Origin: Actinomycetales bacterium
GTDB lineage: Bacteria > Actinomycetota > Actinomycetes > S36-B12
Assembly (NCBI GenBank): GCA_016125355.1
Contig: WGLX01000043.1
Coordinates: forward strand, 1-39,672
Length of the DNA: 39,672 bases
Direction: 5' to 3'
Below, in pieces: positions 4,672 through 29,555 of this stretch (the first letter of the stretch is position 1; every line of letters starts with the position of its first letter). Under the pieces are notes generated by a model. The model did not search any database. It was not told the origin of the DNA and saw nothing but the letters and a program-made list of their open reading frames with translations. The position numbers and the translations under genes are program-made.

Positions 4672-4706
4672 TCAGGGCCCGCCTCCATGAAGGAGGCGGG
4701 CCCTGA
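4672..4706. terminator. Bidirectional stem-loop terminator
   Basis: A perfect 15-bp stem (4672-4686 with 4692-4706) encloses the 5-nt loop ATGAA. It lies between the convergent genes ending at 4656 and 4723. No T-tract follows on the plus strand, as is common for actinobacterial terminators. Confidence 0.8.
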
Positions 4707-22753: not shown

Positions 22754-22845
22754 CCGAGTTGAACCGCTTCCCGGTTCAAATTCTTCACAAAGCGGACATT
22801 GCGACCGCGAAGTGACGATTTGAACCGGGAAGCGGTTCAACTCGG
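22754..22845. terminator. Nested 28-bp inverted repeat between convergent genes
   Basis: Two perfectly complementary 28-nt arms (22754-22781 and 22818-22845) flank a 36-nt spacer that can itself fold (TCAC/GTGA and GCGG/CCGC). The stem extends outward by CCT against GGG with one T-G pair. Each arm also contains its own palindrome, TTGAACCG-N5-CGGTTCAA (22759-22779 and 22820-22840), which looks like a dimeric repressor operator. The right arm includes the TGA of the SIS gene (22837-22839). It may be a bidirectional terminator, but is far longer than needed for one. Confidence 0.75.
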
Positions 22846-26470: not shown

Positions 26471-27919
26471 ATGCCGACTGTCGAGGGCCCCTTCCCCGCC
26501 GCTGACGTGACGGAATGGGCGCAGACGGCCGACGTCGTGGTCATCGGACTCGGCATCGCCGGCGCCTGCGCGGCCCTCGAGGCGCAGCGGGCCGGCGCCG
26601 ACGTGCTCGTCCTCGAGCGGGCGGGAGCCGGCGGTGGCGCGAGCGCGCTCAGCCAGGGGCAGTTCTACCTCGGTGGGGGCACCGACGTGCAGACGGCATG
26701 CGGCTACGAGGACTCCCCCGAGAACATGTATGCGTTCCTCCGCTCCGTGACGACGACCGACGAGGACGCCAAGCTCCGGGTCTTCTGCGAGAGCAGCGTC
26801 GAGCAGTTCGACTGGCTCGAGTCCCTCGGCGTCCCGTTCAATCGCGAGGCCTACACGCACAAGGCCGTCTACACCCGAACGGGCGAGGGGCTGCTCACGA
26901 CGGGCAACGAGAAGGTCTGGCCGTTCCGGGACCAGGCGGCTCCGGCACCCCGCGGCCATCAGGTCTCCGGGGACGGGGACGTCAGCGGGGGCAACGTCGC
27001 CATGCGGGCGGTCCTGGGGGCCATCGAGGCCGAGCAGGTCCCGGTCATCTACGAGGCCAACGTGATCGGTCTCGTCCAGGATGCCGAGGGACGGGTGGTC
27101 GGCGTGAAGATGCGCCGGGACGGCCGCGACTCGTTCGTGCAGGCACGCAAGGGCGTCGTGCTCGCGGCCGGCAGCTTCAACCTCAACGCGGACATCACCG
27201 CCGAGCACATGCCGCTGTTCTCCGAGTACGGCAAGCCCCTCGGCGAGCCGACGAACGACGGCGCGGGGCTGCTGCTCGGCCGCACCGTCGGGGTGGCCGA
27301 GCGGGGCATGGCCGGCCTCGTCGCAACCGCGTCGATCTACCCGCCCGAGGACCTCATCAAGGGCATCGTCGTGAATGCGGAAGGCCGTCGCTTCATGCCC
27401 GAGGACGCGTATCACGGCCGCATGGCACACACCATCGCCCGCCAGCCCGGGGCGAGGGCCTTCCTCATCGTCGACGAGGAGATCTTCGGCTACCCCAAGC
27501 ACGGCTCGCACACCTTCCTGGACGCCTACGAGACCGTCGACGAGATGGAGGCGGCCCTCAGCGTGCCCGCCGGCTCGCTGGTGTCCACCCTCGATCGCTA
27601 CAACGCCGACGTCGCCGCAGGCGAGGATGCCGAGTTCCACAAGCACCCGGACTGGCTCAAGGAGCTGAAGGCGCCGTATGCGGTGTTCGACATCTCCATC
27701 CCGCGTTCCGACTACCACTGGATGTCCCTCGGCGGTCTGGTCACCGACGAGGACGGTCGTGCCCTGCATCCCGACGGCACCACGGTGCCGGGCCTCTATG
27801 CGGCCGGGGCGTGCACCAACCACCTGGCGCAGGACGGTGACGAGTACGCAAGCGGGATGAGCCTGGCGGCGGGCAGCATCTTCGGGCGCCGGGCCGGCGC
27901 GCATGCGGCTGCGTCGTGA
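26471..27919 (+). CDS. FAD-dependent oxidoreductase (fumarate reductase/ketosteroid dehydrogenase family)
   Basis: The 482-residue protein has the FAD dinucleotide motif DVVVIGLGIAGACAALEAQRAG ending in LVLERAG, then the GGASALSQGQFYLGGG loop that follows in FRD/SDH-type flavoproteins. A second FAD-contact segment is KGVVLAAGSFNLN, and the C-terminal GLYAAGACTNHLAQDG...YASGMSLAAGSIFGRRAG closes the site. This is the fold of soluble fumarate reductases, 3-ketosteroid Delta1-dehydrogenases and tricarballylate dehydrogenases; the substrate is unknown. AAGGAG precedes the ATG. The stop codon overlaps the GTG of the HAD phosphatase (GTGA). Confidence 0.85.
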   Translation: MPTVEGPFPAADVTEWAQTADVVVIGLGIAGACAALEAQRAGADVLVLERAGAGGGASALSQGQFYLGGGTDVQTACGYEDSPENMYAFLRSVTTTDEDAKLRVFCESSVEQFDWLESLGVPFNREAYTHKAVYTRTGEGLLTTGNEKVWPFRDQAAPAPRGHQVSGDGDVSGGNVAMRAVLGAIEAEQVPVIYEANVIGLVQDAEGRVVGVKMRRDGRDSFVQARKGVVLAAGSFNLNADITAEHMPLFSEYGKPLGEPTNDGAGLLLGRTVGVAERGMAGLVATASIYPPEDLIKGIVVNAEGRRFMPEDAYHGRMAHTIARQPGARAFLIVDEEIFGYPKHGSHTFLDAYETVDEMEAALSVPAGSLVSTLDRYNADVAAGEDAEFHKHPDWLKELKAPYAVFDISIPRSDYHWMSLGGLVTDEDGRALHPDGTTVPGLYAAGACTNHLAQDGDEYASGMSLAAGSIFGRRAGAHAAAS

Positions 27920-28710
27920 GCCTTCCCGACGGGCTGCGACCCCGCATCATCGCGGTCGACCTCGACGGCACCCTGGTCCCGCCGAGCGGCGATGTGCCGG
28001 AGGGCGTGGCACAGGCGATCGAGCGCGTTCAGACCCATGGCGCAATCGTCGTCGCCGCGACGGGACGTTCCCTGTCCACCACGGCGTACGTCGCGCGCGA
28101 TGCCGGCATGCACGAGTTCGCGGTGGTGAGCAATGGGGCGATGATCGTCACGGTCGACCCGGAGTCCGTCATCGAGGCCGACACCTTCGACGCGGGCGAA
28201 CTCCTCGCCGAGCTCACGGAGCTCTTCCCTGACGCCACCTTCGCGGTGGAGCGTGACGACGGCGTGTTCCTCAGCACGCGTCACTTCGTGGACCGTGGCG
28301 TCAGCCTGGACGTGCGCGAGGTCCCCTATGCCGAGCTGACCCGTGACCCGGTCGTCCGGGTGATCGTCCGCAGCGAGGACCACCTCGACCGGGACCTCGG
28401 CGCCCTCGTCGCCCACCTCGACATGCACTCGATCGCCTTCGGGGTCACTGACGTGGCGTGGCTGGACCTCGGCATCAAGGGCGTCACCAAGGCCACCGGG
28501 CTGCAGAAGCTGTGCGCACGGCTCGGCGTCGGTGCCGACGACGTGCTGGCCATCGGGGATGCCATGAACGACATCGAGATGCTGCGGTGGGCCGGCTACT
28601 CCGTGGCCATGCCGCACGCCCGGCCGGACATCAAGGCCATTGCCGATCACGTCACCGACGGCGGCCCCGGCGTGGGCGTCATCTCGGTGCTGGACCGTCT
28701 CTACCGCTGA
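27916..28710 (+). CDS. HAD-superfamily (Cof-type, IIB) phosphatase
   Basis: The 264-residue protein has all HAD-IIB motifs: IIAVDLDGTLVPPSG (nucleophile and acid Asp), ATGRSL, the Lys in LGIKGVTKATGLQKL and VLAIGDAMNDIEML. The cap region lies between residues 85 and 185. It hydrolyses a phosphorylated metabolite, commonly a sugar phosphate or cofactor. The GTG start overlaps the FAD gene stop codon, so the pair form an operon. Its TGA (28708-28710) lies in the left arm of the nested inverted repeat. Confidence 0.9.
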   Translation: MSLPDGLRPRIIAVDLDGTLVPPSGDVPEGVAQAIERVQTHGAIVVAATGRSLSTTAYVARDAGMHEFAVVSNGAMIVTVDPESVIEADTFDAGELLAELTELFPDATFAVERDDGVFLSTRHFVDRGVSLDVREVPYAELTRDPVVRVIVRSEDHLDRDLGALVAHLDMHSIAFGVTDVAWLDLGIKGVTKATGLQKLCARLGVGADDVLAIGDAMNDIEMLRWAGYSVAMPHARPDIKAIADHVTDGGPGVGVISVLDRLYR

Positions 28711-28771
28711 ATCCCACGCTCCGCGTCACATACGAGGCCGCGTTGTGACGCCTTCCGTGGGATTCAGCGGT
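28703..28771. terminator. Nested inverted repeat between convergent genes
   Basis: Two 16-nt arms (28703-28718 ACCGCTGAATCCCACG and its complement at 28756-28771) flank a 37-nt spacer. The spacer has a second perfect 8-bp inverted repeat, GCGTCACA (28723-28730) with TGTGACGC (28744-28751), and a 13-nt loop. TGA stop codons of both flanking genes (28708-28710 plus; 28764-28766 minus) lie at mirrored places in the arms, so the two genes end with the same sequence. It should act as a bidirectional terminator. Confidence 0.75.
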
Positions 28772-29555
28772 GCTCGACGGACTTGCCGCCGTCGCGGCCA
28801 CCGCCGATGAGGATGTTCTGCCCGGTCACCCAGCCCGATGCGGGCGAGGCGAAGTACAGGACGGCGGCGGCCATGTCCTCCGGCGTGCCCATCCGGCCCA
28901 GTGGCACGGTGCGCGCCAGTGCCTCGAGGTCCGCCTCGGAGAACTGCAGGACCCGGTAGAACGAGTCCGTCGGCACCATGCCCGGTGAGATCGCGTTGAC
29001 GCGGATGCCCTGCGACGCGAGCTCGGCCGCCATGGTCTGCGTCAGGTTGAGCAGTGCCGCCTTCGAGGCGGCATACGCCGCGGTGTTCGGAGCCGCCCTC
29101 ATGCCGGCACCTGACGACACATTGACGATCGCTCCCCCGCGCGTCATCCGCAGGGCCGCCTCCCGCGACCCGGCAGCCGCGGCGACCATGTTGAGCTCGA
29201 ACATGTCCCGGAGCTCGTCGTCGGTGACCTGCGTCATCGGCTTCACATGCGCATCGTCGGTGCCGCCCGCGTTGTTGACCCAGATGTCGAGGTGCCCGAA
29301 CTCCGCAATGGTCGCCTCTGCGATGCGCTTAGGCATGCCCGCTTCCTTGAGGTCACCCGACACCTCGAGGGCCCTCCGCCCGCGCGCCCGCACCTGCTCG
29401 GCCACCTCGTGCACGTCCTCGGCGCGCCGGCTCGTCACGACCACGTCGGCGCCGGCCTCCGCGAGCGCGATGGCGATGCCGCGGCCGATGCCTCGGCCGG
29501 AGCCCGTCACGACGGCGACACGGTCATCGACACGGAAGAGATCAAGGATCGACAT
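28764..29555 (-). CDS. Short-chain dehydrogenase/reductase (classical SDR)
   Basis: The 263-residue protein has VVTGSGRGIGRGIA, the TSRRAE loop, VNNAGGTDD, NVSSGAGM with the catalytic Ser, AYAASKAAL with Tyr and Lys, and the C-terminal GWVTGQNILIGGG. The Arg residues after the second strand suggest NADP(H). The substrate is unknown. It resembles glucose/3-oxoacyl reductase-type SDRs. The ATG is 6 nt after CATACT, a possible leaderless start, although it may also be co-transcribed with the zinc-ribbon gene 12 nt upstream. Confidence 0.85.
   Translation of the reverse strand: MSILDLFRVDDRVAVVTGSGRGIGRGIAIALAEAGADVVVTSRRAEDVHEVAEQVRARGRRALEVSGDLKEAGMPKRIAEATIAEFGHLDIWVNNAGGTDDAHVKPMTQVTDDELRDMFELNMVAAAAGSREAALRMTRGGAIVNVSSGAGMRAAPNTAAYAASKAALLNLTQTMAAELASQGIRVNAISPGMVPTDSFYRVLQFSEADLEALARTVPLGRMGTPEDMAAAVLYFASPASGWVTGQNILIGGGRDGGKSVEHR

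Follow-up and report, generated by a model that had tools for sequence, protein, structure and literature searches.

Bidirectional (I-shaped) terminators of actinobacteria are formed by a hairpin between convergent genes and lack a U-tract. Among dispersed palindromes, REPINs are thought to be maintained or occasionally copied by RAYTs. Three papers describe the REPIN-RAYT system: REPINs are hairpin-forming palindromes whose spacer varies greatly and whose partner nuclease gene is inherited vertically (PMC8049555), RAYT genes are flanked by the repeats, which lie near the 3′ ends of convergent ORFs (PMC3733652), and enzyme and repeat co-evolve (PMC8266576). CGTC-tagged REPs appear in passages of Di Nocera 2013 (PMC3733652) as palindromic sequences of 20–40 bp that contain CGTC and for which those passages give no known transposase; in some genomes they lie mostly <20 bp from both ends of convergent ORFs. 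The AbiEi antitoxin, part of the AbiE type IV toxin–antitoxin system, autoregulates by binding inverted repeats, according to the abstract of PMC7319586. No paper tying DUF559/AbiEi proteins to gene-end palindromic repeats was found in open-access PMC among the matches listed.

The hairpin considered here lies at 28703–28771 of a 39,672 nt stretch of DNA, hereafter the window, from an Actinomycetales bacterium whose genome (G000) comprises 3.34 Mb in 45 contigs. Sequence comparisons suggest that it is probably one dispersed copy of a REPIN-like element whose partner in trans is an AbiEi/DUF559-type protein encoded between two copies. The features of the locus are as follows.

22754..22845, no strand: sister palindrome copy with 28 bp arms and a 36 nt spacer, from the inverted-repeat scan; sister arms flank an AbiEi/DUF559-type gene (G000:C36:37584-38516, 101 bits)
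27916..28710, plus strand: HAD-family hydrolase gene, stop in the left arm (PF08282, E 2.4e-41)
28708..28766, no strand: focal element, 59 nt (55 nt core 28710–28764); pattern match with 0 mismatches, model R1 66.7 bits
28710..28717, plus strand: left box A, AATCCCAC; seven positions conserved in 19/19 copies, one in 18/19
28718..28722, plus strand: left linker N5, semi-conserved; C at two positions in 16/19, without covariation with the right linker
28723..28729, plus strand: left box B, GCGTCAC; GCGTC in 19/19, the next A in 16/19, C in 17/19
28730..28744, plus strand: central N15, variable except for A/T-rich ends (comparison of 19 copies)
28745..28751, plus strand: right box B′, GTGACGC; 19/19
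28752..28756, plus strand: right linker N5, variable (comparison of 19 copies)
28757..28764, plus strand: right box A′, GTGGGATT; 19/19, last base 17/19
28764..29555, minus strand: short-chain dehydrogenase (SDR) gene, stop in the right arm (PF13561, E 4.5e-59)

The hairpin is imperfect and intergenic to the convergent HAD-hydrolase and SDR genes. Its outer arms (28703–28718 and 28756–28771) pair perfectly over 16 bp around a 37 nt spacer, and its inner arms, GCGTCACA and TGTGACGC (28723–28730 and 28744–28751), pair over 8 bp with 13 nt between them. The preliminary description had reported these stems, and both coordinates and shuffles bear them out; the longest perfect inverted repeat is 16 bp here versus 12–13 bp in three dinucleotide-block shuffles of the window. 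A repeat of 16 bp is thus not given by chance. The mirrored stop codons also stand: the TGA of the HAD gene occupies 28708–28710 and the SDR stop reads TCA on the plus strand at 28764–28766, so both coding sequences end within the hairpin arms. What had been taken for a two-tier build, however, is a single hairpin, in which four unpaired bases per side join the outer and inner stems as a 4 × 4 internal loop.

As RNA, the focal hairpin has a free energy of −56.8 kcal/mol (z −8.3), which none of 200 shuffles equalled; the opposite strand folds alike (−57.8 kcal/mol), giving a single hairpin on either strand. A T-run after the hairpin is absent from both strands, as read from the sequence, and a terminator scan limited to loops of 3–8 nt found nothing at the element. 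Membership of a known RNA family was rejected, since none reached gathering score within the window; the same kind of scan over ten element loci gave one true tRNA and three weak microRNA-family matches. The position between convergent genes without a U-tract is shared with I-shaped terminators, but the focal family differs from these in that its boxes are conserved in sequence and a nuclease-like gene is linked to it. Elsewhere in the window, at 4672–4706, a 15 bp perfect hairpin with a 5 nt loop, whose arms start with TCA and end with TGA, looks like an ordinary bidirectional terminator.

BLAST of the focal element against its own genome returned 13 strand matches. Aligned copies share four boxes at fixed spacing, the conserved unit being 55 bp, and the pattern AATCCCAC-N5-GCGTCAC-N15-GTGACGC-N5-GTGGGATT occurs at ≤3 mismatches in 19 places (no mismatch in 12, one in six, two in one, three in none); a reversed-pattern control gave 0 matches. 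Half-sites (≤2 mismatches) number 44, with 38 of them in the 19 places, against four in the control. A covariance model finds at least 33 places, with E-values up to 8e-4. The class that had been suggested does therefore have further members in this genome; most of its pattern and model matches adjoin gene ends, and many are bordered by convergent genes. Among the 19 copies the loop varies in its middle, which is rich in G and C, while the whole N15, A/T-rich ends included, has a mean identity between copies of 0.42 versus 0.26 in shuffles. Near-identical recent copies were not found in the focal subfamily, where the best loop pair (0.8 over 15 nt) was matched by shuffles. The linkers of this subfamily show no covariation and pair no better than chance, so that constraint on an RNA hairpin is not supported in it. 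The 55 bp pattern (≤3 mismatches) has no match in 13 congeners; the focal 59-base palindrome is species-specific. Three further G000 elements (L226 701–758, L227 703–760 and L229 705–762) form a possible third subfamily, with TTTCCATACG and TTTCCAGATG, for which no gene of its own was identified.

Placement was scored with ORF ends from a simple gene caller, an end up to 100 nt away being called adjoining. Of the 19 copies, twelve have convergent ORF ends on both sides, five adjoin one ORF end and two none, so that 17/19 adjoin at least one; positions drawn at random from the window and the G000 loci had both ends in 9/2,819 cases and one or both in 328/2,819. One of the single-ORF copies has the 3′ end of a tRNA-Gln gene 8–9 nt off its other side. 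The 14 further places in G000 divide into six with both ends, five with one and three with none. In other genomes, 77 of 87 elements were scored, among them those that flank units: 22 have both ends, 51 one and four none. These counts use the G000 codon model and leave out ten elements of genus g3 and G033. The sequences alone show a strict palindrome family placed beside gene 3′ ends.

Some elements are paired about 1 kb apart. Six of the 12 inner regions that were read encode homologous proteins of about 305 aa, of AbiEi/DUF559 type, and the rest hold other genes or no clear one. Integron-like gene cassettes, considered because of such pairs, were rejected. Among the six proteins, Pfam finds AbiEi_4 in four (two just under the curated cut-off), DUF559 in one and nothing in that of L050, none matching both families; ten further homologs include four with both (DUF559 just under cut-off in two). 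Across these 16 linked proteins Pfam detects no HUH family, only AbiEi or DUF559-type families or, in three proteins, nothing. The N-terminal part is related to AbiEi, with PF13338 in several proteins and PADLOC AbiEi models matching 6/6. NCBIfam gave no family for six proteins, and L050 has no sequence match in the PDB. A motif D...GExDGxxK recurs in 50 homolog rows, one gene having been entered twice (as L259 and L319): D in 49/50, E in 49/50, D in 49/49 and K in 40/43. It resembles that of PD-(D/E)XK nucleases. DUF559 is a family which we take to be Vsr-like.

A profile of the six proteins (A6), run on 85 genomes of the family, detected homologs in 48 of them at a threshold of E 1e-20. A high-score cut of 180 bits was set at a gap in the scores, the next being 152.7. 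Twenty of the 85 genomes reach it, all within the at least 28 element carriers and none among the remaining 57; when the six query genomes are set aside, the gene is present in 14/22 carriers versus 0/57, although the genomes are related and these counts not independent. With homologs in as many as 48 genomes, the link to the focal element family is confined to the high-scoring clade. Eight of the 28 carriers have no gene above 180 bits, including G013, G027 and G065, which are ≥90 % complete. The 20 high-scoring loci have full elements on both sides in 17 cases, one side partial in two (L261, at a contig end, and L269) and an element on one side in one (L267); without the six query loci the figures are 11, two and one (n=14). 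At ten lower-scoring loci the R2 model has no match (0/10). In G000 itself, the partner gene lies between two copies of the focal element (C5:17943 and 18972), and a second gene (C19:102348) has a subfamily-2 element on either side. Each end of a gene unit in the focal family is a complete palindrome. Where a high-scoring locus has a flanking hairpin, the upstream one ends about 54–143 nt short of where the profile match begins, the reference point used in place of start codons. In G005, three elements of different types (L176 706–2594) enclose a RebB ‘killing trait’ gene together with an AbiEi/DUF559-type gene.

Relatives of the linked protein were absent from phage records, and none was confirmed in viral_contigs. 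Phage origin was rejected, as none of the six pattern hits in viral_contigs has a symmetric 55-mer and no viral protein relative is confirmed. A tblastn search for plasmid relatives gave five hits in five records from three organisms, all typed as non-mobilizable and 0.29–11.9 Mb in size, which may be plasmids or chromosomes.

The likeness to REPIN-RAYT systems lies in a gene flanked by a dispersed palindrome (fully in 17/20 loci, and in 26/55 by a strict test), in a diverse spacer between conserved inverted arms, in a vertically inherited gene, and in element copies beside gene 3′ ends. However, the linked protein is of AbiEi/DUF559 type whereas RAYTs are HUH tyrosine transposases, the focal family has no unpaired GTAG or CGTC tag, and its element is 58–59 bp long with two boxes per arm and 19 copies in the focal subfamily. 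Given the other kind of protein and the missing tags, the focal system is not a member of REPIN-RAYT. The focal elements share with CGTC-tagged REPs a palindromic form, the presence of CGTC and a position adjoining convergent ORF ends. Membership was nevertheless rejected; CGTC here lies inside the paired stem, the unit of 58–59 bp differs in length and a nuclease-like gene is linked. The AbiE system has in common with the linked proteins a related N-terminal part, but these carry in addition a C-terminal DUF559-type part.

Similar architecture with other boxes extends across the genus and family. Covariance-model matches were found in 14/14 genus genomes searched, and those read carry other box A sequences; in the family, elements occur in at least 28/85 genomes and 4/14 genera. 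Element counts are lower bounds, with up to 150 candidates scored per genome in the genus and G000 and up to 65 in the family, and only a subset of the hits in the genus and family scans was read. The matches read are 58–59 nt long, save three of 49, 50 and 57 nt. Box A is GAATCCCAC or GACTGCTACG in G000, depending on subfamily, GAGACCTGC and GACACCAGC in G002/G010, GACTCCATA in G006/G011/G013 and GAGTTCGACTC in G017, with others in further genomes. In alignment A3, which drops the three shorter hits and L194 (a second copy of a G012 contig end), the CGTC columns are paired within the stem; covariation counts from A3 are biased towards structure, most rows having been found with the structure model. 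A pattern scan of genome_contigs returned 26 single hits, where a rough estimate expects about 21, and none has the box spacing of the family. One of these hits, L073, has GTGGGA behind it at a spacing unlike that of the family. Two identical 58 bp elements 2.4 kb apart flank an OmpA-domain gene in G017 (L231 697–3174). At L187 in G003, two elements 870 bp apart (704–761 and 1574–1631) agree almost throughout, even in the loop, which most copies do not, and are perhaps a local duplication.

Box agreement was assessed for those dispersed copies whose genome also has a unit (92 of 102); unit-flanking elements were left out, G002 and G010 were pooled, as was genus g3, and shared ancestry is still contained in the result. 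The mean best arm identity to the unit of the same genome is 0.851, against a shuffled mean of 0.682 and a maximum of 0.721 in 2,000 shuffles. For 72/92 copies no unit scores higher than that of their own genome (shuffled maximum 26), while 20/92 are closer to the unit of another genome. These exceptions include the copy of G004, where the gene-flanking element is unlike the dispersed one, six copies of G005, where the gene is flanked by elements of two different types, and the three G000 copies of the possible third subfamily. The sequences show linkage of gene and element, and agreement in box A between the gene-flanking and most of the dispersed copies. The preliminary description had ascribed the agreement of the two gene ends to their co-evolution; across the genome the agreement is instead one of element boxes, and of elements around the nuclease-like gene.

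Matches of flanking genes show that the gene unit has kept its locus in ten g1 genomes, of which G002 and G004 are supported by one flank only, and likewise in three g10 genomes. At the g1 unit locus G003 carries a lone element, and the unit locus of G017 is the site of a single element in G005. G008 carries an element at the position orthologous to the focal one, with flanks 67 % and 85 % identical and a box that is G008's own. An element site behind sahH is common to seven genomes, with G085 supported on one side; the hairpins of G001, G002, G003 and G012 there are similar in layout but have a different box A, and G004, G007, G008 and G013 carry strong hairpins of seemingly unrelated sequence, as judged by eye. 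At the uprt/pntB junction, an element is present in G000 (72 nt between stops) and absent from five congeners (34, 9, 13, 13 and 13 nt), in which the same neighbour was recognised by eye. The flank matches and this presence/absence show that positions are shared across species and that the traced sites are largely inherited in place, with box A changing and some gain or loss. The list of dispersed-copy histories drops L158, L170, L176, L180, L193, L194, L230, L236, L241 and one L226 row, mostly in units. The gene unit is mostly syntenic within clades, which makes active mobility conjectural.

The 28 bp element at 22754–22845 belongs to a sister family; as a query it gives 98 strand matches in G000. 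Inverted ends of this family, about 80 bp long, enclose an AbiEi_4/DUF559-type gene at G000:C36:37429-38623 (L280), and a look-alike of its palindrome, recognised by eye, flanks the gene in G003 (L311). The preliminary description had likened the focal hairpin to this element for layout and nearly equal spacer. The element exists and is kindred, through a sister family with its own AbiEi/DUF559-type gene, but near-equal spacers are not what relates the copies; the focal copies conserve a 55 bp unit with its four boxes. Elsewhere in G000, sister-family arms are paired at shorter distances of 0.2–1 kb.

In the mechanism proposed here, the protein would bind the boxes, box A being set by its variable, AbiEi-type DNA-binding part and box B shared; such recognition by the linked protein is a well-supported reading of the sequences. 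The DUF559-type (PD-(D/E)XK-like) nuclease part would act on the element as a duplex, a cruciform or a single-stranded hairpin, and the element would thereby be maintained or occasionally copied, as is thought for RAYTs on REPINs; nuclease-dependent upkeep or copying is moderately supported. Copies would survive at sites where they do no harm or bring a benefit, directly behind stop codons between convergent genes. The hairpin, perhaps with bound protein, would there act as a bidirectional terminator or insulator, a role that we infer from position.

A non-mobile regulon would account for part of these observations. The AbiEi/DUF559 protein would then be a DNA-binding roadblock or nicking factor at gene ends, serving termination or supercoil relief, with the elements as its binding sites and the upstream element as its operator. 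Sites inherited in place with changed boxes, as behind sahH and at the focal site, agree with this, and a variable loop within conserved boxes argues against simple copying; the upstream hairpin, about 54–143 nt before the profile match, and the binding of inverted repeats by an autoregulating AbiEi antitoxin (PMC7319586) would suit an operator. A regulon alone, however, leaves unexplained why a full element stands on each side of the gene at loci that differ between clades, why nuclease-type residues are conserved and why a whole element is present or absent at uprt/pntB, and we consider it unlikely. An origin as a classical transposon with internal-deletion derivatives (MITEs), the element being terminal repeats and the AbiEi/DUF559 protein a transposase, draws on the sister family, with its about 80 bp inverted ends around a DUF559-type gene and shorter paired arms elsewhere in G000. 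Each end of the focal-family unit is nevertheless a complete palindrome, loops differ between copies and gene units keep their locus across genera, which makes such an origin quite improbable.

Plain bidirectional intrinsic terminators, as the preliminary description proposed, alike through the spread of a good terminator and with the nuclease-like genes incidental, would explain a strong hairpin at gene ends and the unrelated-looking strong hairpins at the sahH site of G004, G007, G008 and G013 (by eye). Yet the boxes are conserved in sequence beyond pairing, the focal-subfamily linkers pair at chance level, no T-run follows, and neither gene linkage nor box agreement would be expected, so that this account is highly improbable. 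If the REPIN-like reading with an AbiEi/DUF559-type partner holds, it would provide the first testable function for these uncharacterised proteins and would mean that REPIN-like repeat systems arose also with an unrelated nuclease. Many natural protein–site pairs would then be on offer for studying DNA choice by AbiEi/DUF559 proteins.

A broader proposition, on which we are evenly divided, is that AbiEi/DUF559 proteins could be general site-keeping enzymes in Actinomycetota, each paralog being encoded between two copies of its own palindrome and keeping a private, co-evolving set at gene 3′ ends that serves the host in termination or insulation, as a counterpart of REPIN-RAYT with an independent origin in another nuclease. 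Its generality was examined at 55 AbiEi/DUF559 loci (21 high-scoring and 34 others, five of these named records) versus 89 control genes. The same palindromic 11-mer, with one mismatch, occurs on both sides of 26/55 loci (9/21 high-scoring and 17/34 others) versus 0/89 controls; the covariance model finds elements on both sides at most of the 21, so the 11-mer test is strict. Many distant paralogs, in Arthrobacter and Tsukamurella too, have a flanking palindrome of their own. Other settings of the strict test gave 10/55 versus 0/89, 20/55 versus 0/89 and 37/55 versus 3/89. An earlier 10-mer test, positive for 43/55 genes and 20/91 controls, was dropped as too lax. The Nonomuraea locus (L321) has no flanking palindrome, Tsukamurella L324 has GC-rich repeats only, and one fetched stretch (L312) contains no gene of the AbiEi/DUF559 family.

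In the families from named strains, both strands of each palindrome were counted, so that sites are about half as many as matching places. Tsukamurella tyrosinosolvens NCTC13231 has a DUF559-annotated gene (WP_170181047.1) flanked by 65 nt hairpins, with 20 matching places in eight records of that species. Of seven annotated Tsukamurella copies, six have convergent genes around them, with the annotated ends ≥200 nt away in one case, and the seventh follows the end of a co-directional gene. Arthrobacter sp. StoSoilB13 has two such genes; the palindromes around them measure 57 and 64 nt and match 13 and 43 places across two records from this strain. Neither the Arthrobacter nor the Tsukamurella palindromes occur in other organisms within a 72,556-record collection. 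The 43 places of the second DUF559-type gene of StoSoilB13 (L323) are the most of the three named families.
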